Shown in pieces: positions 4,178 through 44,921 of a stretch of 45,078 bases of DNA. How positions within the stretch are numbered: position 1 is the first letter of the stretch; every line of letters begins with the position of its first letter. The translations under genes were made by a program, and so were the position numbers. The notes beneath the pieces are model-generated. The model saw nothing but the letters and a program-made list of their open reading frames with translations, made no database searches and was not told where the DNA came from. Source of the DNA: a virus; IMG/VR virus record IMGVR_UViG_3300029893_000016, positions 1 to 45,078 of that record. One strand, written 5' to 3'.

Positions 4178-4910
4178 CACGCCTCACCGTTATGACAAAA
4201 TCATCCGCGTTGGCAAAACTATTCAACCAGCCGTTTTTGGCGTCCATCAAAACATCGATCACCCTGTCAAGCCGGCCATGATCGCCGCCACACGCCTCGA
4301 CAATCTCCGCCGCCCTGGTGTAGGCCATGTGATCAAATCCAGCCTCCAGCGCAATAGCACGGCCGGCCAGCTCAAATTCAACCTGCTCCCGGTCGATCAA
4401 CTTGCCTTCCATCATCTCCCGCTCGATCCTGGCCTTTTCAGCTTGTTCCTCTGTCCGGCGAATTTCCGCTTTCAGTTTTCTTTCGAGCAAATCGGCCGAG
4501 CGGTCCGCCTTGGCGTCCAGCCCGCTGCCAGCATCCCGCAACACCAGTTCCGCGAAGCGGTCAACATCCCGGCGCCGGAAACCGTCCTTGCGCCGCGCCA
4601 AGCGCCGCGCCCGCACATGGTTTGATAAAGCGCTCTTGCCTATTTTATAGCCACGGACCAGCAGATAAGCCAACACCTCCTGCTGGGTAGCAAAAACATC
4701 CGGCCCGGCCGGCACGCCACAAAGGATGGCTTCCTGCTTCTCCGCCAGCGCCCGCTTTGCCCCTTCCCAATCCCGCAGTTTAGTTATGGTCGGGTCGCTG
4801 TTATAGGCCCGCATGGTGGCCATTGCCGCGTTATGCAACACCGCATATTCAGCTTTGGCCGTCGCCGGCAGCTTATCAAGTATCTCCTGGGGAAGGATAG
4901 CCCCATCCAT
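4164..4910 (-). CDS. HTH plus coiled-coil protein, small-terminase-like
   Basis: A 248-residue protein. Around residues 72-115 an HTH-like segment (TQQEVLAYLLVRGYKIGKSALSNHVRAR) resembles Nu1-type DNA-binding domains. Residues 125-175 form a charged coiled coil. The C-terminal helical part is unassigned. This form is often labelled terminase small subunit, but here it follows primase rather than terL, so a replication role is also possible. ATG 4910 overlaps the primase stop as TGATG. Confidence 0.65.
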   Translation of the reverse strand: MDGAILPQEILDKLPATAKAEYAVLHNAAMATMRAYNSDPTITKLRDWEGAKRALAEKQEAILCGVPAGPDVFATQQEVLAYLLVRGYKIGKSALSNHVRARRLARRKDGFRRRDVDRFAELVLRDAGSGLDAKADRSADLLERKLKAEIRRTEEQAEKARIEREMMEGKLIDREQVEFELAGRAIALEAGFDHMAYTRAAEIVEACGGDHGRLDRVIDVLMDAKNGWLNSFANADDFVITVRRDENT

Positions 4911-8414: not shown

Positions 8415-9347
8415 TTAGGCAGCCTCCATCACAAAATCGAAATACTGCGGCCACATGGAGCGGAAATCACCGAGCAATGGAACCATGACTTCCTTCATTG
8501 ATGGATCAGCGGCGCTGCTTGTGCGGAGATGAAATATGTGCTGCCATTGCTTCAAATCAGTGTAGACAATCAATTCCGTTTTTACGGCATTCGGCAACAC
8601 AGTTCTTGCCGCCTGTGGAGATGACGTCTCCAGCAGATGAAGGTAGATAGCCTCTGCCCGATTACAGGCCCGGTACCAGTAGACATACTCCATGCTCCCC
8701 TCTTGATAGAAACACGGCTTGACAAATGTCACCTCGCCGCCGAACCTGGCGGCGCCGTACCGGCAATACCGTTGGCTCTCCTGGAGGAAAGAACAGGGTC
8801 GGTGCCTCACAATTTCATGAGAAATGGCCCTGTTGACAATAAATTTTGCCGCAACCCTGCGATGCCTTAGCTGTAAGCCATCGCCGAACAACGCCTGCTC
8901 GCTTGCCGTGACCTCACGAACAGAAATTGAGACACGCCCACCGATCTGTGGATCAGGGAAAAACTCAGGATATCTGCCATGCAACGCTTGCAGAATAGCA
9001 AGCCCAAGGAAAGACGGCGTGCATGGCAACTCATAGAAAGCCCTGACGCTCCCGGTGATCAGCAATTTTTCCGCCTCCAGCCAATCAATTACAAAATACT
9101 TCGGCTGCGAAGCGATAAACTCAGAAATAACCCCGCTCCCGGCTTCCACCTCCAATGTCAGAGATGCCATCTCCAAAACAGAAAGATGTCCACGCTTGAT
9201 GATATCTGAGACAAAACCAGTTGCAGAATCACCGGTGATCTTGTCCTCGCTCTTGTAACAGATGCGCCCACATGCCTCGATTCGCTGGGCAATCGGCATC
9301 ACCTCCAATTCACTGCAAATGTGAGCAGATGGCGGAATTACTCTCAT
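8415..9347 (-). CDS. thyX: FAD-dependent thymidylate synthase ThyX
   Basis: A 310-residue protein that makes dTMP from dUMP with methylene-THF and FAD. The signature RHRxxSxxxxSxR is complete: Arg181, His182, Arg183, Ser186, Ser191, Arg193. The C-terminal half has the usual substrate-binding pattern (AARTVLPNAVKTELIVYTDLKQWQHIFHLR). It is slightly longer than typical bacterial ThyX (210-250), as is common in phages. It overlaps the stop of the small upstream gene by four bases and lies in the early operon, so it probably raises dTTP supply during replication. Confidence 0.93.
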   Translation of the reverse strand: MRVIPPSAHICSELEVMPIAQRIEACGRICYKSEDKITGDSATGFVSDIIKRGHLSVLEMASLTLEVEAGSGVISEFIASQPKYFVIDWLEAEKLLITGSVRAFYELPCTPSFLGLAILQALHGRYPEFFPDPQIGGRVSISVREVTASEQALFGDGLQLRHRRVAAKFIVNRAISHEIVRHRPCSFLQESQRYCRYGAARFGGEVTFVKPCFYQEGSMEYVYWYRACNRAEAIYLHLLETSSPQAARTVLPNAVKTELIVYTDLKQWQHIFHLRTSSAADPSMKEVMVPLLGDFRSMWPQYFDFVMEAA

Positions 9348-11854: not shown

Positions 11855-12201
11855 TGACCTACATCGCACCGATGCTCCTGCTTTTGCCGGCCATCGCCGC
11901 CGCCAATCCCCTCCCTGAAAAATACTACCAGGAAAAATGGTGTGCCGATCAGGCCGGCCAGGTTGAACACATCCTTCCGGATCGCACCCGCGTCGATTGC
12001 CTCACCGCCACCCACGCGGTCGAGGTCGATTTCGGCAAAAAATGGGCGGAGGCAATCGGTCAGTCCCTCTATTACTCCCACCTGACCGGCCTCCGCCCGG
12101 GCGTGCTCCTCATCGTCGGCCCTGGTGATTCCATCCATTGGCTGCGGACCATGATGCTCGCCAAAAAATACGGAATCGATGTCTGGACCATCGACAAATG
12201 A
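11851..12201 (+). CDS. Exported nuclease-like protein
   Basis: A 116-residue protein with a signal peptide (YIAPMLLLLPAIAAA). The mature domain, DRTRVDCLTATHAVEVDFGKK followed by WAEAIGQSLYY and PGVLLIV, recalls a minimal PD-(D/E)xK endonuclease core: an Asp, a strand with Glu, Lys residues, then a helix with Gln. I have seen close relatives labelled only hypothetical. An exported nuclease made from the lysogeny arm could act on incoming DNA in the periplasm. Its ATG overlaps the previous stop, and its stop overlaps the integrase ATG. Confidence 0.68.
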   Translation: MMTYIAPMLLLLPAIAAANPLPEKYYQEKWCADQAGQVEHILPDRTRVDCLTATHAVEVDFGKKWAEAIGQSLYYSHLTGLRPGVLLIVGPGDSIHWLRTMMLAKKYGIDVWTIDK

Positions 12202-13217
12202 GCATCCAGCGCAAACCGGACGGCCGCATTGCCGTCGTCTGGTACGAGGCCGGTAAGCAAAAATGGCGTTACTTCGGCCGGGGCCCGGAAGCGGAAACAG
12301 CCGCCGCAGATTTTGACGCCGACATTTCCGGCGGCAAAACCACCATCCGTCGAAACCCGCTCCCAACCCTGCGCGACTTGGCAACCGCCTACATCGCCGC
12401 CAAAATAGCCGAATCGGAGCGCACCACCCTCAAGTGCCAGATCAACAAAATGGATGCCGTCATCCTCCCGGCCCTTGGCCACCTGCACATCAACCACATC
12501 ACCCCAGCAAAAATAGACAAATACGTCGCCGACCGCCTTAAACGAGGTCGCAAGTTGACCACCATCCGCCGCGACATCGACGACCTCCTCGCTATCCTCA
12601 ACTGGGCGATCACCCGCGGCCTGATCACCGAACACCCCCTGCAGCGATACCGTCGCCCAAAACGCGACGACAGCATCATCCAGCCACCAACCGTTGCCGA
12701 ACTGCAACTCCTGCTTGAGCACGCAGCAGACCACCTGCGACGGGCGCTCCTCATCAGCTTTTATACCGGCCTGCGCCCAGGCGCCGCCGAACTCTTCGGC
12801 CTCACTTGGGACGCGGTCGATTTCAACCGGAAATCAATCAGAATAGTATCGGCCAAAAAAAACGGCCTCACTTATAGAGATATCCCGATACATGGGACAT
12901 TTGCGGAAAAACTGCAGGAATGGAAAGACGCGGATGCCGGAATTGATATTCCGATCATCCACCACAAAGGAAAGAAAATAAATTCGATCAAAACAGCATG
13001 GTCCGCCGCCAAACGCCGCGCCGGCATCACTCGCCGCCTGCGCCCATACGACCTCCGCCACGCCTTCGCCACCCACCTGCTTGACCAAGGAGCGGACCTG
13101 AAGTCTGTCAGCGAGATGCTTGGCCACAAATCGGTGGAAACCACCCTGAAAACCTACCAGCACACATCCAAGGAGCTGCACCGACAAACCGTTAAAAAAC
13201 TCCCTGACCTTGGCTAA
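12198..13217 (+). CDS. int: Phage tyrosine integrase
   Basis: A 339-residue tyrosine recombinase for attP x attB integration. The N-terminal part binds arm sites, with a SAM-like domain at about 55-150. The catalytic part has TGLRPG (Arg193), YDLRHAF (Arg287, His288; the first box residue is Tyr instead of His, seen in other phage integrases), GH at 309-310 and Tyr320. It differs clearly from IntI at 42126. ATG 12198 overlaps the upstream stop. The tRNA-Pro fragment lies 64 bases after its end, the usual int-attP order. Confidence 0.93.
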   Translation: MSIQRKPDGRIAVVWYEAGKQKWRYFGRGPEAETAAADFDADISGGKTTIRRNPLPTLRDLATAYIAAKIAESERTTLKCQINKMDAVILPALGHLHINHITPAKIDKYVADRLKRGRKLTTIRRDIDDLLAILNWAITRGLITEHPLQRYRRPKRDDSIIQPPTVAELQLLLEHAADHLRRALLISFYTGLRPGAAELFGLTWDAVDFNRKSIRIVSAKKNGLTYRDIPIHGTFAEKLQEWKDADAGIDIPIIHHKGKKINSIKTAWSAAKRRAGITRRLRPYDLRHAFATHLLDQGADLKSVSEMLGHKSVETTLKTYQHTSKELHRQTVKKLPDLG

Positions 13218-13680: not shown

Positions 13681-13751
13681 GGCATCCCACACGCCGGGCA
13701 GCAACGCCCGGCAAATTTCTTCCCGCACCGGCAGCACATTTGCTCTTTCAT
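13674..13751 (-). CDS. 25-residue zinc-ribbon peptide
   Basis: ATG 13751 overlaps the stop of the PLA2-like gene as ATGA. The 25-residue product is dominated by two Cys knuckles (CCRCGKKF and CCPACG), enough for one zinc site. Its stop overlaps the ATG of the next gene. Two coupled overlaps and a conserved-looking metal site make it credible despite its size. Confidence 0.5.
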   Translation of the reverse strand: MKEQMCCRCGKKFAGRCCPACGMPC

Positions 13752-14137
13752 CGGTTCGCCCCCACCTCACCCCAGCGCCATGACGCGCCCGGAAAATCGC
13801 CGCCGGCCCGCACGGCGTTGAAAACAATCTCAGCGAATATGACATCGGATGTCATATCAGCAACTCTCAGCATCAGCCGCGCATCGGCTCGCAGACGGTC
13901 AAGCGGTGATCCGCCGAGCCAGTATTCGATATCATGCTCGAAATACGCCGGGTACAGGTCTACCCCACCCCAGCGTTTCGGGGCGCCGCCTGACCCACCG
14001 TCCGAAACAAAATCACGCTCAGGAGCAGGAGTGGACCTGATCCGCGCCGATAGTTCTGTCCAGCCCCAGGCATCGGCAATCGCTAACACCTGATCTCTTG
14101 TCAATACCTCTCCTGGCCCTGGTAATTTGCAGCACAT
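13748..14137 (-). CDS. Phospholipase A2-like phage protein
   Basis: A 129-residue protein whose centre reads FEHDIEYWLGGSPLDRLRADARLM. This matches the layout of PLA2-like folds: a His-Asp pair with a Tyr three residues on, a GG, then a helix with Asp. If active it would hydrolyse phospholipids and could assist lysis. The family link is by motif only, and the Cys pair normally before HD is missing. It starts at ATG 14137, with TAATG overlap to the lytic enzyme upstream, in the lysis region. Confidence 0.52.
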   Translation of the reverse strand: MCCKLPGPGEVLTRDQVLAIADAWGWTELSARIRSTPAPERDFVSDGGSGGAPKRWGGVDLYPAYFEHDIEYWLGGSPLDRLRADARLMLRVADMTSDVIFAEIVFNAVRAGGDFPGASWRWGEVGANR

Positions 14138-14601
14138 TACACCCACCCCTTTGCGTTTTCCAGCACCTTGTCGACATACTCCTGGTTGACGTACCTGCCG
14201 CCGGCTACTCGCACGGGCCGCCCCGCATTATACGCCGCAATGCCATCCTCCACACTGCCGAAGCGTCTGATCTGCTTTGCGAGATAGCGGCACCCGTGCT
14301 CAAATTGCAGGTGGACATTACCAAACACCTCCGGCAACCAACCAGTGAACCCCTGCTCTCGGAAGGTCGCGCCCATCACCTGCATAATTCCGAGCGACGT
14401 TTTTTGTAACATTTCTTCCGATAACGTCGAGCACAGCGGCGGCTTCACTGCCTTCGGGTCCACCGTCCATCGGTAGTCAGGCTCGTAGCGAAATGCGTTG
14501 TGATTCAACGTCGATTCCGTCACACACACGCCGTAAACGATCTCAGGCGGGATGCCGTGCTTTTTCGCGTATTTCTCAATCAGCGGTCGGTAGTCTGTCA
14601 C
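14137..14601 (-). CDS. Lytic transglycosylase (SLT), phage endolysin
   Basis: A 154-residue muramidase-type enzyme that cleaves peptidoglycan glycan strands. The SLT fold is seen from YRPLIEKYAKKHGIPPEIVYGV, the catalytic Glu in VTEST, SLGIMQV and the final YNAG motif. The start is GTG 14601 with GGAG seven bases upstream; the open frame reaches 15009, but that part is the shadow of the ferredoxin-like genes. There is no signal peptide, so release would need the holin candidates at 15.0-15.5 kb. Confidence 0.87.
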   Translation of the reverse strand: MTDYRPLIEKYAKKHGIPPEIVYGVCVTESTLNHNAFRYEPDYRWTVDPKAVKPPLCSTLSEEMLQKTSLGIMQVMGATFREQGFTGWLPEVFGNVHLQFEHGCRYLAKQIRRFGSVEDGIAAYNAGRPVRVAGGRYVNQEYVDKVLENAKGWV

Positions 14602-14797
14602 TTTTCCACTCCACCTGTATCGCGTCGTGTGGGCAGAGGTTCCGTGCCCAATCGAGCCGCAATTGATTTGCCCGGTGCTCTGCCGATGACAGCTCAAAAA
14701 ATCCCTGACAATTGAATCTATCTCCGATTCCCGGCCAATGCTGATCGCATCGGCCACAATGCTTGCATACACTGTTGTCTCGTGAGACACGGAACAA
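14576..14797 (-). CDS. Single-cluster ferredoxin-like protein 2
   Basis: A 73-residue protein with Cys-x2-Cys-x2-Cys near the N-terminus (CKHCGRC) and a distant CPHDAI near the C-terminus. That is the signature of a [4Fe-4S] ferredoxin with one cluster. The start is TTG 14797 with GGAG six bases upstream. It follows ferredoxin-like protein 1 by three bases and overlaps the lytic enzyme gene. A redox or structural (tail tip metal) role is open. Confidence 0.68.
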   Translation of the reverse strand: MFRVSRDNSVCKHCGRCDQHWPGIGDRFNCQGFFELSSAEHRANQLRLDWARNLCPHDAIQVEWKSDRLPTAD

Positions 14798-14800
14798 ATA

Positions 14801-15022
14801 TCACTCCTCAATCGTGAGCGCTCCGGCCTTGCAGGCCCGGACAGCAGCGTGAAAACGAGCAAAATATTTAATAGCCCAATGCCGATTAACGAAAAACCCA
14901 CTATCCCCCTTCGCCATTCCCGGCATACCGTCCAGCCCGCTATCCGGGGCACACATGAACGGCAGTATGAGATGGCACTCGTAACAGTTATTGCACAAAA
15001 TCTGGTCAACTTTGAGGATCAT
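14801..15022 (-). CDS. Single-cluster ferredoxin-like protein 1
   Basis: A 73-residue protein with CNNCYEC at 10-16, a further Cys at 24 and an ACKAGAL element near the C-terminus that aligns with the ACPTGAI box of ferredoxins. It has the same length and design as the next gene, so the pair probably arose by duplication, though they have diverged widely. ATG 15022 overlaps the upstream stop as ATGA. Confidence 0.68.
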   Translation of the reverse strand: MILKVDQILCNNCYECHLILPFMCAPDSGLDGMPGMAKGDSGFFVNRHWAIKYFARFHAAVRACKAGALTIEE

Positions 15023-21779: not shown

Positions 21780-22627
21780 TATGCGATCCTCCAGCCGTCC
21801 GTTGAATCCTTGTATACCAAGGAAAACCCGGCATTTTTATTCAGTGTCAAGTCCTCAGCGGAGCCCATGATCTTCTCGCCGTTCCTGGCCACCGTTGCGT
21901 TGCTCGCCTCCCAATCGCCGCCAGGGGCAAAGCGCACAGTGTTGCCTGCTGTCGGGGTTGCCGGCAATGTCACCGTGGCCCCGCCAGCGACCACCAGCGC
22001 ATCGCCGTCCGCAGCGGTATGGGTCGTGGATACCGTCGTCCATTCCACCTGATTTGTCTTTTTCAGCACCCCGGCGGAAACATTCAGGCCGAAGCCAAGC
22101 AATGAGCCGAGATAATTTGCCGTGTCGCCGCTCCCGGTCAGCTTGACTTGATAGGTGTCCGACCCGACCACCGCCGTAATATCTTCAAAAACCTCTTTTC
22201 CTGCTGCTGTCCGGTACACCTTGACATAGCCGTCGGCAGCCGTGCCGCTGTAATCTGTTTTCGCCAGGGTGATTGCCCCGGATGCAATCCGCGTTCCCGC
22301 CTCAATGGCATCAAGACGGGCATCGACATTCACCTCTGTCGCCCTCGCCGCCTCCACCTCGCTTTTCACGGTGTCGTACTGGTCAAGCCGGGCGTCAAGA
22401 TCAACAAGCCCACCCCGTGCCGCCGATATCTCGGATGCGGCCCCGGACGCCACCCCCTCCACCGCATCAAATCGCGCATCGGTAGAGGCCAAGCCGCCCC
22501 GTGCCGCCAGTATTTCCGCGTCAATTGCCTGGAGATTTGCAAGCCACGAGTCAGCCGCCGCGTAGAAATTGACGGTGAAATTCGTCGTGCATGGCTCCGG
22601 GAATGCCGTCCATGTCCATATTGTCAT
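21779..22627 (-). CDS. Tail fibre protein with coiled coil
   Basis: A 282-residue protein. Residues 25-110 hold three heptad-like repeats of the type ARGGL..(T/L)DAR(F/L)D, a trimeric coiled-coil shaft. The C-terminal 90 residues (TTHTAADGDALVVAGGATVTLP and NGEKIMGSAEDLTLNKN) are a typical beta tip domain. ATG 22627 overlaps the preceding gene as ATGA. It is probably the shaft that carries the adhesin encoded next. Confidence 0.72.
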   Translation of the reverse strand: MTIWTWTAFPEPCTTNFTVNFYAAADSWLANLQAIDAEILAARGGLASTDARFDAVEGVASGAASEISAARGGLVDLDARLDQYDTVKSEVEAARATEVNVDARLDAIEAGTRIASGAITLAKTDYSGTAADGYVKVYRTAAGKEVFEDITAVVGSDTYQVKLTGSGDTANYLGSLLGFGLNVSAGVLKKTNQVEWTTVSTTHTAADGDALVVAGGATVTLPATPTAGNTVRFAPGGDWEASNATVARNGEKIMGSAEDLTLNKNAGFSLVYKDSTDGWRIA

Positions 22628-23376
22628 CGCTGATCCTCCAGCGTGAAATTGATAGAAGAATGACGGTAATGGTCGTGGCTGCCCTGGTAGCTGAGTGATC
22701 CGTAATGGGTGAACCGGCACCGCTCCGCCGCCGTCAATCCACGAACAAGCAGCACCGCCAGCGGTGTTCCTGCCACCCCGTCACAAATGTCGGTGAATTT
22801 CCAGTATTCGTCGGCGCGGGTCAAAAGGATTTGCCCCCGGTGGCTGTGGCTGGCCTGGCGCGGCTCAAGATAAAAAGAGGTGTCGTTCATCTCCCGCCGC
22901 ACCCATGCCTTGACCGGGGCATGGGCAAGTCCGTATTTCGGATTCAAGGTGAATTCCGCTGCCGCGCCAGCCCTCAAGCAGCCAATTGCCGGTGCCGTGC
23001 TGTCCGTTAAGGCAATCTCGATCTTGACCGGATTGGCCGAGCAGTTCCAGCTTATCCAGATGTTCTTCCACTCGCGCCGCTCCCCGGCAACCAAGGCCGA
23101 GTAGTCGGTGATGTAGCTCAGGTCAAAAGTCTCTGTCAGCAACACCGCACTTGTCACCGTGTCCGTCACCGTCACCGTCAGCCCGCCGTCAGCCCGCACA
23201 TTGATTGCCGCCAGGTGTCCGCACATTGCCGGTGCGTAGCAGGTAAACGTTGCGCTGGTCGCCCCTGCTTTCCACACCTCTTGTGGATATCCGGTGGCGA
23301 CGTTGGTAGCAGGAAACCCGGTAGCCGACGAGGTGGCACTTTGGGTATAGAGCTGATCGTGGTAAATAATGATCAT
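22624..23376 (-). CDS. Tail protein (distal, hypothetical)
   Basis: A 250-residue beta-rich protein with regular spacing typical of baseplate hub partners (YAPAMCGHLAAINVRADGG, EWKNIWISWNCSANPVKIEIAL). It lies between the hub-like gene and the fibres with ATGA overlaps on both sides. Exact identity not recognised. Confidence 0.62.
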   Translation of the reverse strand: MIIIYHDQLYTQSATSSATGFPATNVATGYPQEVWKAGATSATFTCYAPAMCGHLAAINVRADGGLTVTVTDTVTSAVLLTETFDLSYITDYSALVAGERREWKNIWISWNCSANPVKIEIALTDSTAPAIGCLRAGAAAEFTLNPKYGLAHAPVKAWVRREMNDTSFYLEPRQASHSHRGQILLTRADEYWKFTDICDGVAGTPLAVLLVRGLTAAERCRFTHYGSLSYQGSHDHYRHSSINFTLEDQR

Positions 23377-38486: not shown

Positions 38487-38526
38487 CATGGGTGGCCGGA
38501 CAAGCACCTGTCACCCATGCTTTTTC
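38487..38526 (+). terminator. Terminator of the accessory operon
   Basis: CATGGGTG (38487-38494) pairs with CACCCATG (38512-38519), followed by CTTTTTC. It lies just after the ASCH gene and overlaps the end of the converging ParB-like gene. Confidence 0.58.
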
Positions 38527-39236
38527 ACCCGGCCAAGCGGCCCTTGCCGCAAATTCTCCATCACATACGCACCCTCGACAAATTGCTCAAACACCGGCAC
38601 ACCCAGCGCCGTCAGCAACTCTTTCTTCTCCCCATCGTCCCGGCACACCACCGTGAAATAAAAATTCCCCTGGTTGCGCTCCTGCATGCGCTCGTTCATT
38701 TTCCCGCGCTGTTCCTTGATCTCCCGCAGCTTCTCCCCCGTCTCTACAATCTCTTCCTCATCAACAAAAATGCGGGCAAAGCGGGCATCCCCCTCAAACA
38801 GCATATTCACGTCAAATGCCTCGAACCCCATCTCAGCAAAATCAATGCCGTGCTCCAGGTTGAGATCGGCCAGCATGTCGAGATTCCATTCCCCCTGGGC
38901 CGATGGGTTGTTAAAAAAAACAACCATTTCCTTTTCGGTTTGCTCGTCAACATCGATCACCGACACGTCAATCTCATATTCCCGGCCCCGCTCCAGGCTG
39001 TCGATGCTGGCCAACCGCTGATGCCCGCTGACCAGATTGCCGGTCCTGGCGTTCACCACCAACGGCGTCAGCAAGCCAACCTCCTTGATTTTCCCCTTGA
39101 GCTTCTTTTTGTTCTGCTCTGTGATCAGCCGCGGATTATACGGCGCCTCCCGGATCTCCGAGCGCCGCATGGTGCGCATCTCAAAACGCTGATGCTTTGT
39201 TTTTGCGATCACGGTTTCCGATTTCTTCTTTGACAC
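38511..39236 (-). CDS. ParB-like domain protein (IbrB-like)
   Basis: A 241-residue protein with a ParB/Srx-type domain: NPRLITEQNKKKLKGKIKEVG, LVVNARTGNLVSGHQRLA and a following VIDVDEQTEKEM. ParB folds of this kind bind CTP or act as nucleases. The start is GTG 39236 with GGAGG upstream; the longer frame overlaps the previous gene further. It overlaps the PAPS reductase-like gene by 56 bases, the same order as ibrA-ibrB in E. coli prophages, where the two proteins regulate other prophage genes. Confidence 0.8.
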   Translation of the reverse strand: MSKKKSETVIAKTKHQRFEMRTMRRSEIREAPYNPRLITEQNKKKLKGKIKEVGLLTPLVVNARTGNLVSGHQRLASIDSLERGREYEIDVSVIDVDEQTEKEMVVFFNNPSAQGEWNLDMLADLNLEHGIDFAEMGFEAFDVNMLFEGDARFARIFVDEEEIVETGEKLREIKEQRGKMNERMQERNQGNFYFTVVCRDDGEKKELLTALGVPVFEQFVEGAYVMENLRQGPLGRVKKHG

Positions 39237-39870
39237 AGCCAGCCTCCACAAAAGGAAAAAATTTGCAAATCCGCGCAAAATCAGCCGGGTAGTGCGCCCT
39301 GATCTTCACCATGTCCGCCGGATCAAGCGAGCGGAACGACCAGCCCAGCACCCGATATTCCGGCGCCATCTTCAAGCGATGCCGCTTAACATAGGCGAGA
39401 ATATCGTTTTTGCGGAAGTGCGCCACCGGATACACCCGCCACCTTTTCACGTCAATGCTCGAACTTTTTTTAATCATCGCCCGCCGCACAATGGAATCGG
39501 CGATCCGCTCCCCTGCAGCAATCCACTCCACCCCATGCTGCAAACGCAGATAGTGATAAATGTCGTTGAACCCTATCTCCGGCCAGTCACGATGCGCCTG
39601 CCGGAATACCCCCCATTTCAGCCAGAACGACAACATCGGATGAGGCAACCGCTCGATCTGAACGTCGTACCGCTGCTCATACCAGCGTAATTGAGCCTCT
39701 TGGAAAGACAGCCCCGGCACCAGATAGAGAAAATACGGCACCACCCGCCTGAAATGGCGGAAACAGAGGTCGAGGGTGACAATTGAATCCTTGCCGCCGG
39801 AAAAACCAACCAACACGCTGTCGAACATAGCCGCCGCCGTCTTCACCGGCAAAAACAGTTCAACCCCCAT
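39181..39870 (-). CDS. PAPS reductase-like protein (IbrA-like)
   Basis: A 229-residue adenine nucleotide alpha hydrolase. The P-loop FSGGKDSIVTLD sits near residues 23-34, and HFRKNDILAYVKRHR matches the second motif of the family. Such enzymes activate substrates with ATP for sulfur transfer or nucleotide change; the sulfate-reducing Cys of true CysH is not evident. It is paired with the ParB-like gene. DNA modification or gene control are both possible. Confidence 0.8.
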   Translation of the reverse strand: MGVELFLPVKTAAAMFDSVLVGFSGGKDSIVTLDLCFRHFRRVVPYFLYLVPGLSFQEAQLRWYEQRYDVQIERLPHPMLSFWLKWGVFRQAHRDWPEIGFNDIYHYLRLQHGVEWIAAGERIADSIVRRAMIKKSSSIDVKRWRVYPVAHFRKNDILAYVKRHRLKMAPEYRVLGWSFRSLDPADMVKIRAHYPADFARICKFFPFVEAGCVKEEIGNRDRKNKASAF

Positions 39871-40210: not shown

Positions 40211-42129
40211 CACCACCTCCGTGGTTTCTCTGTTTTTTCCCGCGTCGGCGGCGCCGCCTCTTCCCCCGGCTGTCGGCGGAACCGAACCCCGAGCAGATCA
40301 GCCAGGGCGAGGAAATACACCCCGCAGTCCCAGCCGTGATTGTCGCGGCCGGCCGGACACTCCCAAGTCCCAGCATCATTGATGAACTCAGCGCACAGCA
40401 TCGCCGCCCAGCGCTCATCATACCAGCCATGCAGCAACCACGCCCCCGGACCGGCCGGACCGATCTCCAGCTTTGCCGCCAAAACGTCCTTGAAATAGTT
40501 GGTGTTGACCCGGAACAACTTAATCCCGCCTGGTATCGGCTTGCTCGTGCCTGGGTAGTATTCAATATTACTCCAGGCGTGCGGGCCAGCCATGTTCCTT
40601 TCGCCTTTCAACGGCACCAGCCGCCCCCGGTACTTGCGGCAGAGGTCGTACACCTCGGCGGTCCGGTGCCCCATGGCATCGATGGCCGCCGCCTGGACGT
40701 GATATTCGGCCCCGTCCGCGTCGGCATACCGGTGAGCAAACAACACCTCCTCCAAGCCGGCGATCGAATCGACAAACCCGGCCCGCACTCCCCAGCTCGG
40801 CAACGCCTGCCCATAGCCAAAGGCGCGGATCTCATACCAGAACCCATTGTCCTGGGTGTCAACCCCGGCCAGCAGCCCGGCCGCCACCCCACCGGCCGGC
40901 ACCATTCCTTCCGGCCGGTCATCCCGCAATGCCAACACCGCGTCTTCCTGCCTATCTTGCTTGACATGGAACCACGGTTCCGCCTTGAAGGCATTGCAAA
41001 AGTTTTTATAAGCATTCAGGTTGAGCTTACCATCCGGCTTACAGCGCAAGAATGCCGCCGCCACCTTGGAAAGCGACACAAAGGTGGATAGCCATGCTGG
41101 GACGTGAAAGGCGATCTTGCGCGGCCGCTCGTCCGCCAAATACCGGTGCAGCTCCCGGCCGTCGCCCTTGGCCCGCCAGTATCCAGCCCGCACCGCCTTA
41201 TCCCGCAGATAATCACTCCACCTGCCGCCGCATTCCTCGCACTCATACCAGGCCAGCGACAACAGCTCGATGGCATCCGGATCGCGCTCGTCATCCGGGA
41301 ACTTGATTCCCCCCCGCGTCTCCGGCCCGCCGAACATCATCACCTGCTCCGCCCCGCACAATGGGCAGCGCACCACATATTCAAAAATCACCTGCGCAGA
41401 CAGCAGCGCCTGCCAGATATAGCCGCTCTCAACAGTCGGCGTCGAAATTTTCCAGATCTTCGATGTCCACCGAAACGTTACCGCCCGCAACTCACCCAGG
41501 GAAATCGGGTCTGTCTCTTTGCGGTTACTGGCCGCATATTTATCGATCTCGTCAAACACCACATAGCGACAGGGCTTATTTGCCAACCGCGCCACTGAGG
41601 TGGCCCATGCCATATAGATCGGCATACCGGACAACTTCAGTTTGAGCGCCCCAGCATCATCGTCTCTCCCACTCATCAGCTCCCGCAGCCGCGCCGACGA
41701 GGTAAACATCGGCGTGATGCGGTCCTGGCAATTCTCCCGCGCCGTCGTCTCGTCCGGATAAACATAAAGCGCCGGGCCCGGCGCCCGGTCCGCCGCATAG
41801 GCAATACAGTTGTTAATCGACTCGCTTTTGCCGGTCTGCGGGGTCGCGCAAATCACCGTCTCCCGCACTGACGGGAAAAACGACGCGTCCATAATCCCGG
41901 CCAGGTACGGGGTCACCTCGTTTTTCCACGGTCCTGGCAATGACGAAAGCGACACCACCCGATAACGCTCGCACCAGGCAGACACCGCCATCGGCTTCCG
42001 CTTGCGGTACGCGGCCCGCTCGGCCCGGGAAAACCGGAACTCAATCTTTTCCGGCAACCGTGCCGCCATCCCAGCCGGCAGCCATCCGGGGATTGTTGTC
42101 TCTATTTGCTGTTTCACCGCGTTTTTCAT
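40210..42129 (-). CDS. terL: Terminase large subunit, GpA family
   Basis: A 639-residue packaging motor. ATPase: Walker A-like ATPQTGKS at 95-102 and Walker B VVFDEID at 190-196. Two CxxC pairs (CPLCGAEQ, CEECGGRW, about 255-305) form the zinc element typical of GpA proteins. The nuclease half contains LLAGVDTQDNGFWYEIRAFG and AIDAMGHRTAEVYDLC. Length is close to lambda GpA (641). Its ATG overlaps the intI stop (ATGA), so intI and terL share a transcript. Confidence 0.93.
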   Translation of the reverse strand: MKNAVKQQIETTIPGWLPAGMAARLPEKIEFRFSRAERAAYRKRKPMAVSAWCERYRVVSLSSLPGPWKNEVTPYLAGIMDASFFPSVRETVICATPQTGKSESINNCIAYAADRAPGPALYVYPDETTARENCQDRITPMFTSSARLRELMSGRDDDAGALKLKLSGMPIYMAWATSVARLANKPCRYVVFDEIDKYAASNRKETDPISLGELRAVTFRWTSKIWKISTPTVESGYIWQALLSAQVIFEYVVRCPLCGAEQVMMFGGPETRGGIKFPDDERDPDAIELLSLAWYECEECGGRWSDYLRDKAVRAGYWRAKGDGRELHRYLADERPRKIAFHVPAWLSTFVSLSKVAAAFLRCKPDGKLNLNAYKNFCNAFKAEPWFHVKQDRQEDAVLALRDDRPEGMVPAGGVAAGLLAGVDTQDNGFWYEIRAFGYGQALPSWGVRAGFVDSIAGLEEVLFAHRYADADGAEYHVQAAAIDAMGHRTAEVYDLCRKYRGRLVPLKGERNMAGPHAWSNIEYYPGTSKPIPGGIKLFRVNTNYFKDVLAAKLEIGPAGPGAWLLHGWYDERWAAMLCAEFINDAGTWECPAGRDNHGWDCGVYFLALADLLGVRFRRQPGEEAAPPTREKTEKPRRW

Positions 42130-43088
42130 GCCGCCAACCGGTCAAGCGGACTACGGACACTTGTGCACACCCCCATAACATGGGTATAGATCATGGTGGT
42201 GGTCACATCCTTGTGGCCTAGCAGTTCCTGCACGGTGCGGATGTCGTGCCCGTCCTCAAGCAGATGGGTGGCAAATGAATGCCGTAGCGTATGCGGCCCC
42301 ACCTGTTTGGCGACCCCGGCCAGCCGGGCCGCCCGCTTCACCTCTTTTTGCACTGCGCTGTCGTGGATATGGTGCCGCCGCACCGCGCCTGTTCGCGGGC
42401 ACACAGATCGCTTCTTTGCCGGGAATACCCATTGCCACGCCAATTCCCGGCAGGCGTTCGGATATTTCCGCGCCACCGCAAACGGCATCTCCACATCACT
42501 GATCCCGGCCGCTGCTTCTCTCCTGTGCAGCCGTCCTACCTCGTCGATCTGCGCCCGCAAATCTACCGCCACCGCCGCAGGCAGCATGACAAAACGATCC
42601 TTGCCGCCCTTACCATGCCGAACGATCACAGTCCGCCGGTCGAAATCAACATCTTTGACCCGCAACCGCAGGCATTCGTTGAGCCGTAGCCCGCAGCCAT
42701 ACAGCAACGAGACAATCAGCCGCATTTGCCCGGACAGGTGGTCAAGCATGGCGAAAGCCTCCTGTCTCGATAGCACTACCGGCAATTTCCGCCCCCGTTT
42801 CGCCCTGGCAAAATCGGCAAAATCGCCGAGTTCGGCCCTGATGCAATGCTTGTAAAAAAAGACAATGGCGTTGAGCGCCTGCCGCTGCGTCGCCGCACTC
42901 ACATTGCGCCGGTTCGCCAAATCAGCCAGAAACCATTTAATCTTCTCCTCAGATCCGCCGGCAGGATTCGCTTGACAATAGAGACAGTAGCGCTTCAACC
43001 AACCAAGATACGACTTTTCCGTTTTCAGCGAATACCGTTTAAAGCGGACAGTGTTCCGCATCATGTCAAGCGCATCCCGCACGTTCAT
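42126..43088 (-). CDS. intI: Integron integrase IntI
   Basis: A 320-residue tyrosine recombinase of the integron class, close in length to IntI1 (337). Catalytic residues are complete: Arg135 (CGLRLNE), Lys160, His266 and Arg269 (PHTLRHSF), His292 (LLGHKD) and Tyr301 (MIYTHV). The IntI-specific insertion is present at about 190-225 with KYPNACRELAWQWVFPA, the feature that separates IntI from phage and Xer recombinases. The C-terminus VRSPLDRL is also typical of IntI. ATG 43088 follows GGAGGTGGGCA. It reads away from the array as in standard integrons. Unusually it lies inside a phage operon and its stop overlaps terL. It inserts and excises cassettes at attI/attC. Confidence 0.96.
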   Translation of the reverse strand: MNVRDALDMMRNTVRFKRYSLKTEKSYLGWLKRYCLYCQANPAGGSEEKIKWFLADLANRRNVSAATQRQALNAIVFFYKHCIRAELGDFADFARAKRGRKLPVVLSRQEAFAMLDHLSGQMRLIVSLLYGCGLRLNECLRLRVKDVDFDRRTVIVRHGKGGKDRFVMLPAAVAVDLRAQIDEVGRLHRREAAAGISDVEMPFAVARKYPNACRELAWQWVFPAKKRSVCPRTGAVRRHHIHDSAVQKEVKRAARLAGVAKQVGPHTLRHSFATHLLEDGHDIRTVQELLGHKDVTTTMIYTHVMGVCTSVRSPLDRLAA

Positions 43089-44017: not shown

Positions 44018-44075
44018 ACATAACTCCACGTTGCAGCGGACGGCCTTCGGCCGCGCGCTGAACTAGGCGTTAAAT
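44018..44075 (+). other. attC site C
   Basis: Left core ACATAAC (44018-44024), right core GTTAAAT (44069-44075). Arms GTTGCAGCGGACGGCC and GGCCGCGCGCTGAAC pair around a TTC loop, a textbook attC fold. 58 bases. Confidence 0.9.
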
Positions 44076-44921
44076 GGCTACTGCATATTCAGGGGCAGTG
44101 CCACGGTGCTTGTAATAATACCCCATGATGTGGCGGCGTTGTTCGTCGTCCCATCCGAGGCGGTGCTGCTCATCGGTCACGATGTTCTTTTGTAGCTGGT
44201 CCAGGGCATGGAACCACATTGGGTAGGCTTTCACTCCGTGGCTCTCCACCCACTCGCACCGTTGCCAGCTTTCGCGTGGACCGCTCGTGAATCCGACCAG
44301 GCAGTAGGAAGAAATGTTTCTCTTGGCAATCCCGGCGCTTCTGAGCCGGTCGAAAGCCTCTTGCCACTTTTCCCGGTAGTCCATGTGGTCCAGTGCAAGC
44401 CGGATCGTCGGCTTTTTTATCTCGGCAAACCGGGCGGCGTGGTAGTCGGTCAGCAGTCGAGAGTCAACGCCCTGATTGAAATCGGCCCACCCATGCAGAA
44501 CAAGCCGGTCAATAACCTTGTCAAAATGCGCCTTGCTTGCGGCGAGAAGGTTGTTGTCGGTAATCATCGGCAAGTTTGGCCATTCTTCCAGTTCCCGATA
44601 TTCTCCCTCAATCCTTCCCGTGCCGATCGCGCAGAACCCACACCGCCGAACACAGCCAACGGTTGTACGGGTTGCAAGTTGGTTTACCCTTTGCAGCACC
44701 CCTGGTTCATCGTGGCCTTCCTGCACATAATCCAGGGAGTCAAAGAATCCAGGCATAAGCTCAACGGCAGGGCCACCGACAATGGCATTGTCCCACCAAA
44801 TGGAATGTTGCCGCAGATTGGCAAGAACTCCTGGTAACTCCCATGTAAAAGGAATCGACACCTTCAGAGTCTTATCAATCTGCCAATATGTCGGTTGTTT
44901 TGGCCACATAGGTACGCTCAT
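44070..44921 (-). CDS. Radical SAM protein (cassette)
   Basis: A 283-residue protein with the Cys-x3-Cys-x2-Cys cluster (CVRRCGFC, about 95-102) that holds the [4Fe-4S] cluster and SAM. It follows the TTVGCVRRCGFCAIG pattern and has QGVDSRLLTDYHAARFAEIKKPTIRLALDH, usual for the radical SAM barrel. The family occurs in phages; the substrate is unknown. ATG 44921 directly adjoins the attC D left core with no ribosome site; ATG 44909 is an alternative. The TAA stop lies in the attC C right core. Confidence 0.88.
   Translation of the reverse strand: MSVPMWPKQPTYWQIDKTLKVSIPFTWELPGVLANLRQHSIWWDNAIVGGPAVELMPGFFDSLDYVQEGHDEPGVLQRVNQLATRTTVGCVRRCGFCAIGTGRIEGEYRELEEWPNLPMITDNNLLAASKAHFDKVIDRLVLHGWADFNQGVDSRLLTDYHAARFAEIKKPTIRLALDHMDYREKWQEAFDRLRSAGIAKRNISSYCLVGFTSGPRESWQRCEWVESHGVKAYPMWFHALDQLQKNIVTDEQHRLGWDDEQRRHIMGYYYKHRGTAPEYAVAI

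Follow-up and report, generated by a model that had tools for sequence, protein, structure and literature searches.

Ferredoxin-like genes in the lysis cassettes of two phages

Ferredoxins encoded by phages

Phage ferredoxins have so far been read as metabolic helpers. As described in the sources, a Prochlorococcus phage ferredoxin (Campbell 2020, cited in PMC9973337) and a 4Fe-S ferredoxin of a Nitrospirota phage from Lake Baikal (PMC7678222) are metabolic genes rather than parts of a holin–endolysin cassette. The Baikal protein is 86% identical to that of its host, whereas the two proteins considered here, Fd1 and Fd2, are far diverged. A generic ferredoxin query of phage records returned unannotated records and one annotated phage ferredoxin, that of Bacillus phage SP-15, which lies among small hypothetical genes outside a lysis context. 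Iron–sulfur clusters are also found in tail tips of the lambda gpL type, where four cysteines hold the cluster (PMC10721106); their cysteine spacing and gene place differ from those of Fd1 and Fd2. Cellular mono-cluster ferredoxins of the Pfam families Fer4_13 (PF13370) and Fer4_15 (PF13459), e.g., those of Bacillus thermoproteolyticus and Desulfovibrio (Fd I and II), resemble Fd1 and Fd2 in cysteine spacing, Pro and Ala positions and length.

Phage ferredoxins are thus known, and the lysis-cassette setting appears to be new; a partial literature search found no paper placing a ferredoxin in such a cassette. Ferredoxin genes occur within two lysis cassettes that are otherwise unrelated, each in a tight operon with holin-type and endolysin genes. 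This placement suggests that they act in the lysis phase, and it gives a specific connection, open to testing, between redox state and the timing of lysis in anaerobes. If the proteins are only late electron carriers, the locus is still a new place for such genes and reveals a diverged family missed by current profiles.

The phage and its lysis cassette

The window, i.e., the whole analyzed stretch of 45,078 bases, is an IMG/VR virus record carrying genes for TerL, a portal protein, a fused head protein/protease, a tape measure protein and two integrases, which points to a temperate tailed phage. Judged by its tail genes, the phage is siphovirus-like. Both integrases in this one record are of the tyrosine type (Table 1). 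TerL relatives occur on five cellular contigs, four of them from Deltaproteobacteria (Desulfobulbaceae, Desulforhopalus and Desulfohalobiaceae; 45–55% identity) and the fifth cyanobacterial (28% identity). These relatives hint that the host is likely an anaerobe, probably a sulfate reducer.

Table 1. Features of the window (positions counted from its first base)
Feature	Position	Strand	Remarks
ThyX	8415-9347		
Tyrosine integrase	12138-13217	+	
132-aa ORF	13748-14146	-	
SLT lytic transglycosylase (endolysin)	14137-14601	-	PF01464, E = 6.5e-12; SD GGTGGAG
Fd2, mono-cluster ferredoxin homologue, 73 aa	14576-14797	-	TTG start; SD GAGGAG
Fd2 CKHCGRC, predicted cluster ligands 1-3	14747-14767	-	predicted fourth ligand Cys55 at 14633-14635 in LCPHDAI
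Fd1, diverged mono-cluster ferredoxin-like protein, 73 aa	14801-15022	-	ATG start; SD GAGGTG
Fd1 CNNCYEC, predicted cluster ligands 1-3	14975-14995	-	predicted fourth ligand Cys64 at 14831-14833
Holin-accessory-like protein, 108 aa	15019-15345	-	one C-terminal hydrophobic segment, residues 77-104 (hydropathy)
Putative holin, 67 aa	15342-15545	-	two hydrophobic segments, residues 14-34 and 41-63 (hydropathy)
250-aa protein	22624-23376	-	follows the tape measure gene; six Cys
PAPS-reductase-domain protein	39181-39870	-	possible redox enzyme of this phage
Tyrosine integrase	42126-43088	-	
Radical SAM protein with CxxxCxxC	44070-44921	-	CVRRCGFC; phrog_9298 at 1.2e-22

The tail genes are followed on the minus strand by genes for a 67-aa protein, a 108-aa protein, Fd1, Fd2 and an SLT lytic transglycosylase, and the junctions between them overlap or nearly abut. 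Two small membrane proteins together with an SLT endolysin in such an arrangement constitute a lysis cassette. The original prediction had placed two 73-residue frames between a membrane protein and the endolysin; both were recovered with identical coordinates, with two membrane protein genes upstream and the endolysin gene downstream. The 67-aa protein, which matched no Pfam or PHROG family, is a putative holin on the basis of size, place and hydropathy. The 108-aa protein (weak phrog_6420 match, E = 1.2e-4) is holin-accessory-like by place and topology, and the endolysin contains no hydrophobic segment. The start codon of Fd1 overlaps the stop of the 108-aa gene, the start of Fd2 stands in the context GAGGAG-N6-TTG, and the endolysin begins with GTG at 14601, within the 3′ end of Fd2. 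Fd1 and Fd2 are probably translationally coupled within the holin–endolysin operon.

Relationship to mono-cluster ferredoxins

The predicted Cys-x2-Cys-x2-Cys motif and a distal Cys are present in both proteins. Cysteines occupy positions 10, 13, 16, 24 and 64 in Fd1 (distal box RACKAGAL) and 11, 14, 17, 30 and 55 in Fd2 (LCPHDAI). Both follow the mono-cluster signature D-x3-C-x2-C-x2-C-x4-P...A-x3-C, keeping the flanking Asp four residues before the first Cys, Pro five residues after the third Cys and Ala four residues before the last Cys. In an alignment with three cellular mono-cluster ferredoxins, used as yardsticks, the four ligand cysteines, Pro22 after the third Cys and the Ala before the last are invariant; the same ligand columns recur in ferredoxins retrieved in this analysis. 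Departures from the Fer4_13 and Fer4_15 families are seen in Fd2, with HWPGIGD where PxxF/Y is usual, and in Fd1, where CK replaces CP (the proline is gone) and the loop is long. An extra Cys occurs in both.

Profiles were built from the yardsticks and the retrieved sequences. An HMM containing neither protein gave 30.5 bits for Fd2 and 12.7 bits for Fd1 in their 73-aa forms, and the best other score in the window, where 462 stop-to-stop ORFs with a minimum length of 40 aa were compared, was 7.1 bits; in its own stop-to-stop form Fd1 scored 5.9 bits and ranked third. Over different training sets the scores ranged from 21.4 to 30.5 bits (Fd2) and from 9.8 to 12.7 bits (Fd1). Shuffles with the cysteines fixed scored as well in 0/3000 cases for Fd2 and 13/3000 for Fd1. 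In a larger set the counts were 0/5000 for Fd2 with either profile and 17/5000 and 57/5000 for Fd1, the latter value coming from a profile of cellular ferredoxins only. Similarity beyond cysteine placement is thereby found for Fd2 and, more weakly, for Fd1. The ferredoxin-like character originally proposed for the pair therefore holds by profiles, shuffles and a reciprocal match for Fd2, while the weak scores of the more diverged Fd1 make it a probable rather than a certain ferredoxin.

Fd2 aligns with Fer4_13 over its full length (residues 7–62 to 2–58), with a sub-threshold 14.2 bits against the gathering cut-off of 24.5; Fd1 has no Fer4_13 match, just a short sub-threshold match to Fer4_6. 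Sequence searches of Pfam, PHROGs, NCBIfam and PDB returned nothing above cut-off for either protein. The family phrog_2147 was rejected for a weak match restricted to a 22-residue motif. AlphaFold models from single sequences, with no alignment, had mean pLDDT of 46 and 52 and were uninformative as to fold. Given the Pfam scores and these models, we only infer cluster binding.

The two genes are tandem in their order, and not in their kinship: Fd1 and Fd2 share no detectable similarity beyond the motif (phmmer E 0.4–0.6), which speaks against tandem duplication of one gene and makes a recent duplication improbable. In the small set compared, the best match of Fd1 was a cellular Desulfobacterota ferredoxin (2.6e-5), and that of Fd2 was the ferredoxin of the second phage described below (reciprocal best, 2.5e-8 / 4.4e-8; tblastn 27% identity over 63 aa, E 8.7e-6).

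A ferredoxin in a second lysis cassette

A scan of IMG/VR with the ferredoxin signature as a pattern recovered, in addition to this phage itself, the contigs L100 (IMGVR_UViG_3300037424_001991) and L107 (3300037484_001520), which are 99.99–100% identical and represent one phage population. Its single-copy ferredoxin (64 aa, at 2891-3085 of L100) passes the Fer4_13 and Fer4_15 cut-offs, with 25.5 bits for Fer4_13, and shares C-x2-C-G-x-C-x2-H-x-P-G-[IL]-x-D with Fd2. The gene overlaps one encoding a 71-aa membrane protein with a single hydrophobic segment; next come genes for a holin (phrog_1356, DUF7940), a phage lysozyme (PF00959, 6e-35) and an Rz-like product.

In both phages the ferredoxin is thus encoded within the lysis cassette beside membrane proteins. 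The L100 phage has one ferredoxin gene, placed before the holin gene, whereas the window has a pair between the membrane protein genes and the endolysin gene. The endolysin families also differ (Phage_lysozyme with an Rz-like gene against SLT), as does the cassette's place: after the tail genes in the window, and in L100 with a virion-region gene (phrog_30644) on one side and the tape measure gene on the other. Identities of 37% for TerL and 26% for the portal show the two phages to be distant kin. The pairing of ferredoxin and lysis in two cassettes sharing no other detected gene argues for a lysis-phase role, two cases being few.

At the start of the L100 contig (L243 1-1493) a cold-shock protein gene precedes an integrase gene, and this region may be a host flank with the insertion site.

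Distribution

The rarity of ferredoxins in phages, assumed in the original prediction, agrees with the searches: 50,697 phage records contained no match to Fd1 or Fd2 at E below 1, and hence no convincing relative of either. The ferredoxin profile was also run against 8105 ORFs of the L100 phage and of TerL relatives, many of the contigs being fragmentary; its sole match was the L100 protein, included as a positive control. The lysis regions seen in some TerL relatives contain no ferredoxin, nor do 15 Desulfobacterota lysozyme loci, so that a rare accessory gene is indicated. To look for the close similarity to a host gene expected of a host-derived auxiliary metabolic gene, at most 15 candidates per genome were scored in a sample of 395 Desulfobacterota genomes; the best profile matches reached 6.9e-7, and none was a close copy or stood in a lysis context. 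No lysis-cassette ferredoxin was found in Desulfobacterota genomes by the A2 profile, the L100 membrane protein or the motif pattern.

Scans of IMG/VR with the single proteins retrieved one contig, at least 99.9% identical and therefore the same phage, which carries no evolutionary information. A scan for CxxCGxCxxHxPG gave unrelated frames except in L085, L100 and L107, and repeating the signature scan in its TGT-codon form yielded nothing. Ferredoxin matches in L087, L108, L109 and human faecal records were set aside, their phage origin not being established. A phage-like contig of 250 kb, L089 (IMGVR_UViG_3300037086_000360), encodes a mono-cluster ferredoxin at 4562-4816 (+), with no evident lysis cassette around it, and has three radical SAM matches.

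Possible functions of the ferredoxins

Fd1 and Fd2 are tentatively considered late-made, mono-cluster [4Fe-4S] electron carriers of the lysis operon, serving a redox partner in an anaerobic host. Small soluble proteins would be produced late from the holin–endolysin operon, each predicted to bind one [4Fe-4S] cluster through three clustered cysteines and the distal one. As low-potential one-electron carriers, they could exchange electrons with a host or phage redox partner as the infection of an anaerobe, probably a sulfate reducer, nears its end. Electron supply is the most economical of the three roles originally suggested. Against it stand the Pfam scores below the gathering cut-offs, the uninformative AlphaFold models, the weak scores of Fd1 with its missing CP proline, and the restriction to two independent phage types, near TerL relatives having no ferredoxin at all.

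Redox-gated lysis is a somewhat unlikely alternative, in which binding of the Fe-S proteins to the cassette's membrane proteins, or to an energy complex in the membrane, would make the triggering of the holin or the release of the endolysin depend on the host's redox or energy state; cluster loss or oxidation, for example, could free the holin. Holins are triggered by loss of the proton motive force, which suits this mechanism, as does the placement of the coupled genes between holin-type membrane protein genes and the endolysin gene. Redox sensing for lysis gains some weight from the L100 ferredoxin, which is similarly placed among otherwise unrelated cassette genes; the placement evidence is the same as for electron carriers. 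However, no precedent was found in the literature searched, the cases number two, and ferredoxin is absent from the lysis regions of other phages in the TerL group. That some phages of anaerobes have, more generally, built ferredoxin-type Fe-S proteins into a lysis machine whose holin triggering or endolysin release answers redox or energy state is likewise an unlikely generalization.

Donation of electrons to phage-encoded redox enzymes is improbable. The window encodes a radical SAM protein and ThyX, which makes such a supply plausible here, and the 250-kb L089 contig combines a ferredoxin with its radical SAM matches. However, this explanation is weakened by the L100 phage, which has a lysis ferredoxin and in which no radical SAM match and, by tblastn, no ThyX was detected. 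Conversely, the relatives G004, G005, G017 and G032 have radical SAM matches with no ferredoxin found, and late expression from the lysis operon would be odd timing. The PAPS-reductase-domain gene of the window adjoins one for a ParB-like protein (phrog_9353, 8.5e-58), the two spanning 38511-39870 (-).

There is little chance that Fd1 and Fd2 are diverged Cys-rich proteins which no longer carry electrons, bind zinc or nothing, and play a structural or regulatory role. Sub-threshold Pfam scores, the CP-to-CK change and long loop of Fd1 and the extra cysteines would fit such proteins, but both proteins retain the complete set of four ligand positions along with the Asp, Pro and Ala that flank them.

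A virion or assembly role, be it iron–sulfur supply to a tail tip protein like lambda gpL or the originally suggested carriage of iron in the virion, is very improbable. Fe-S clusters do occur in gpL-type tail tips, and the 250-aa protein encoded next after the tape measure region has six Cys; yet it has no Pfam or PHROG match, and its gene lies about 7.6 kb from the ferredoxin genes in the lysis cassette. No need for a phage ferredoxin is known in other siphophages with gpL tips. The 250-aa protein may itself be an Fe-S protein of the tail tip, akin to gpL.

Reading frames across Fd1 and Fd2

The endolysin frame is also open across Fd1 and Fd2. Codon usage in the Fd1 frame is gene-like (0.08 bits per codon, against a 5–95% range from −0.01 to 0.45 in pieces of known genes), unlike that of the two remaining frames of this strand. 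Fd2 is atypical at −0.25, below the range of known genes, and over its length the endolysin frame scores better. Position-specific GC, high-low-high in known genes, fits Fd2 at positions 1 and 2, whereas the extension of the endolysin frame has high GC at codon position 2. In our view, the homology of Fd2, its GC pattern at these two positions and its Shine-Dalgarno site outweigh the codon usage and make it a genuine gene, whose odd usage would be accounted for if it were foreign or had been gained recently.

That both ORFs are spurious and the stretch really belongs to a single endolysin of 290 aa, anchored in the membrane by its N terminus, is hardly credible: the frame, open from 15009, does contain a hydrophobic segment, and Fd2 usage is atypical, but the extension is not gene-like over Fd1 and has a GC profile unlike genes here, the homology of Fd2 exceeds shuffles by far, and the SLT homologue is short (a 165-aa phage protein, 36% identical, annotated without the N-terminal extension).

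Just past the endolysin, the 132-aa ORF (weak phrog_6098 match, 0.0045; no Pfam match) has HDIEYWLGGSPLDRLRAD, which by eye resembles the HDxxY motif of the phospholipase A2 type; its product could be a further lysis protein.
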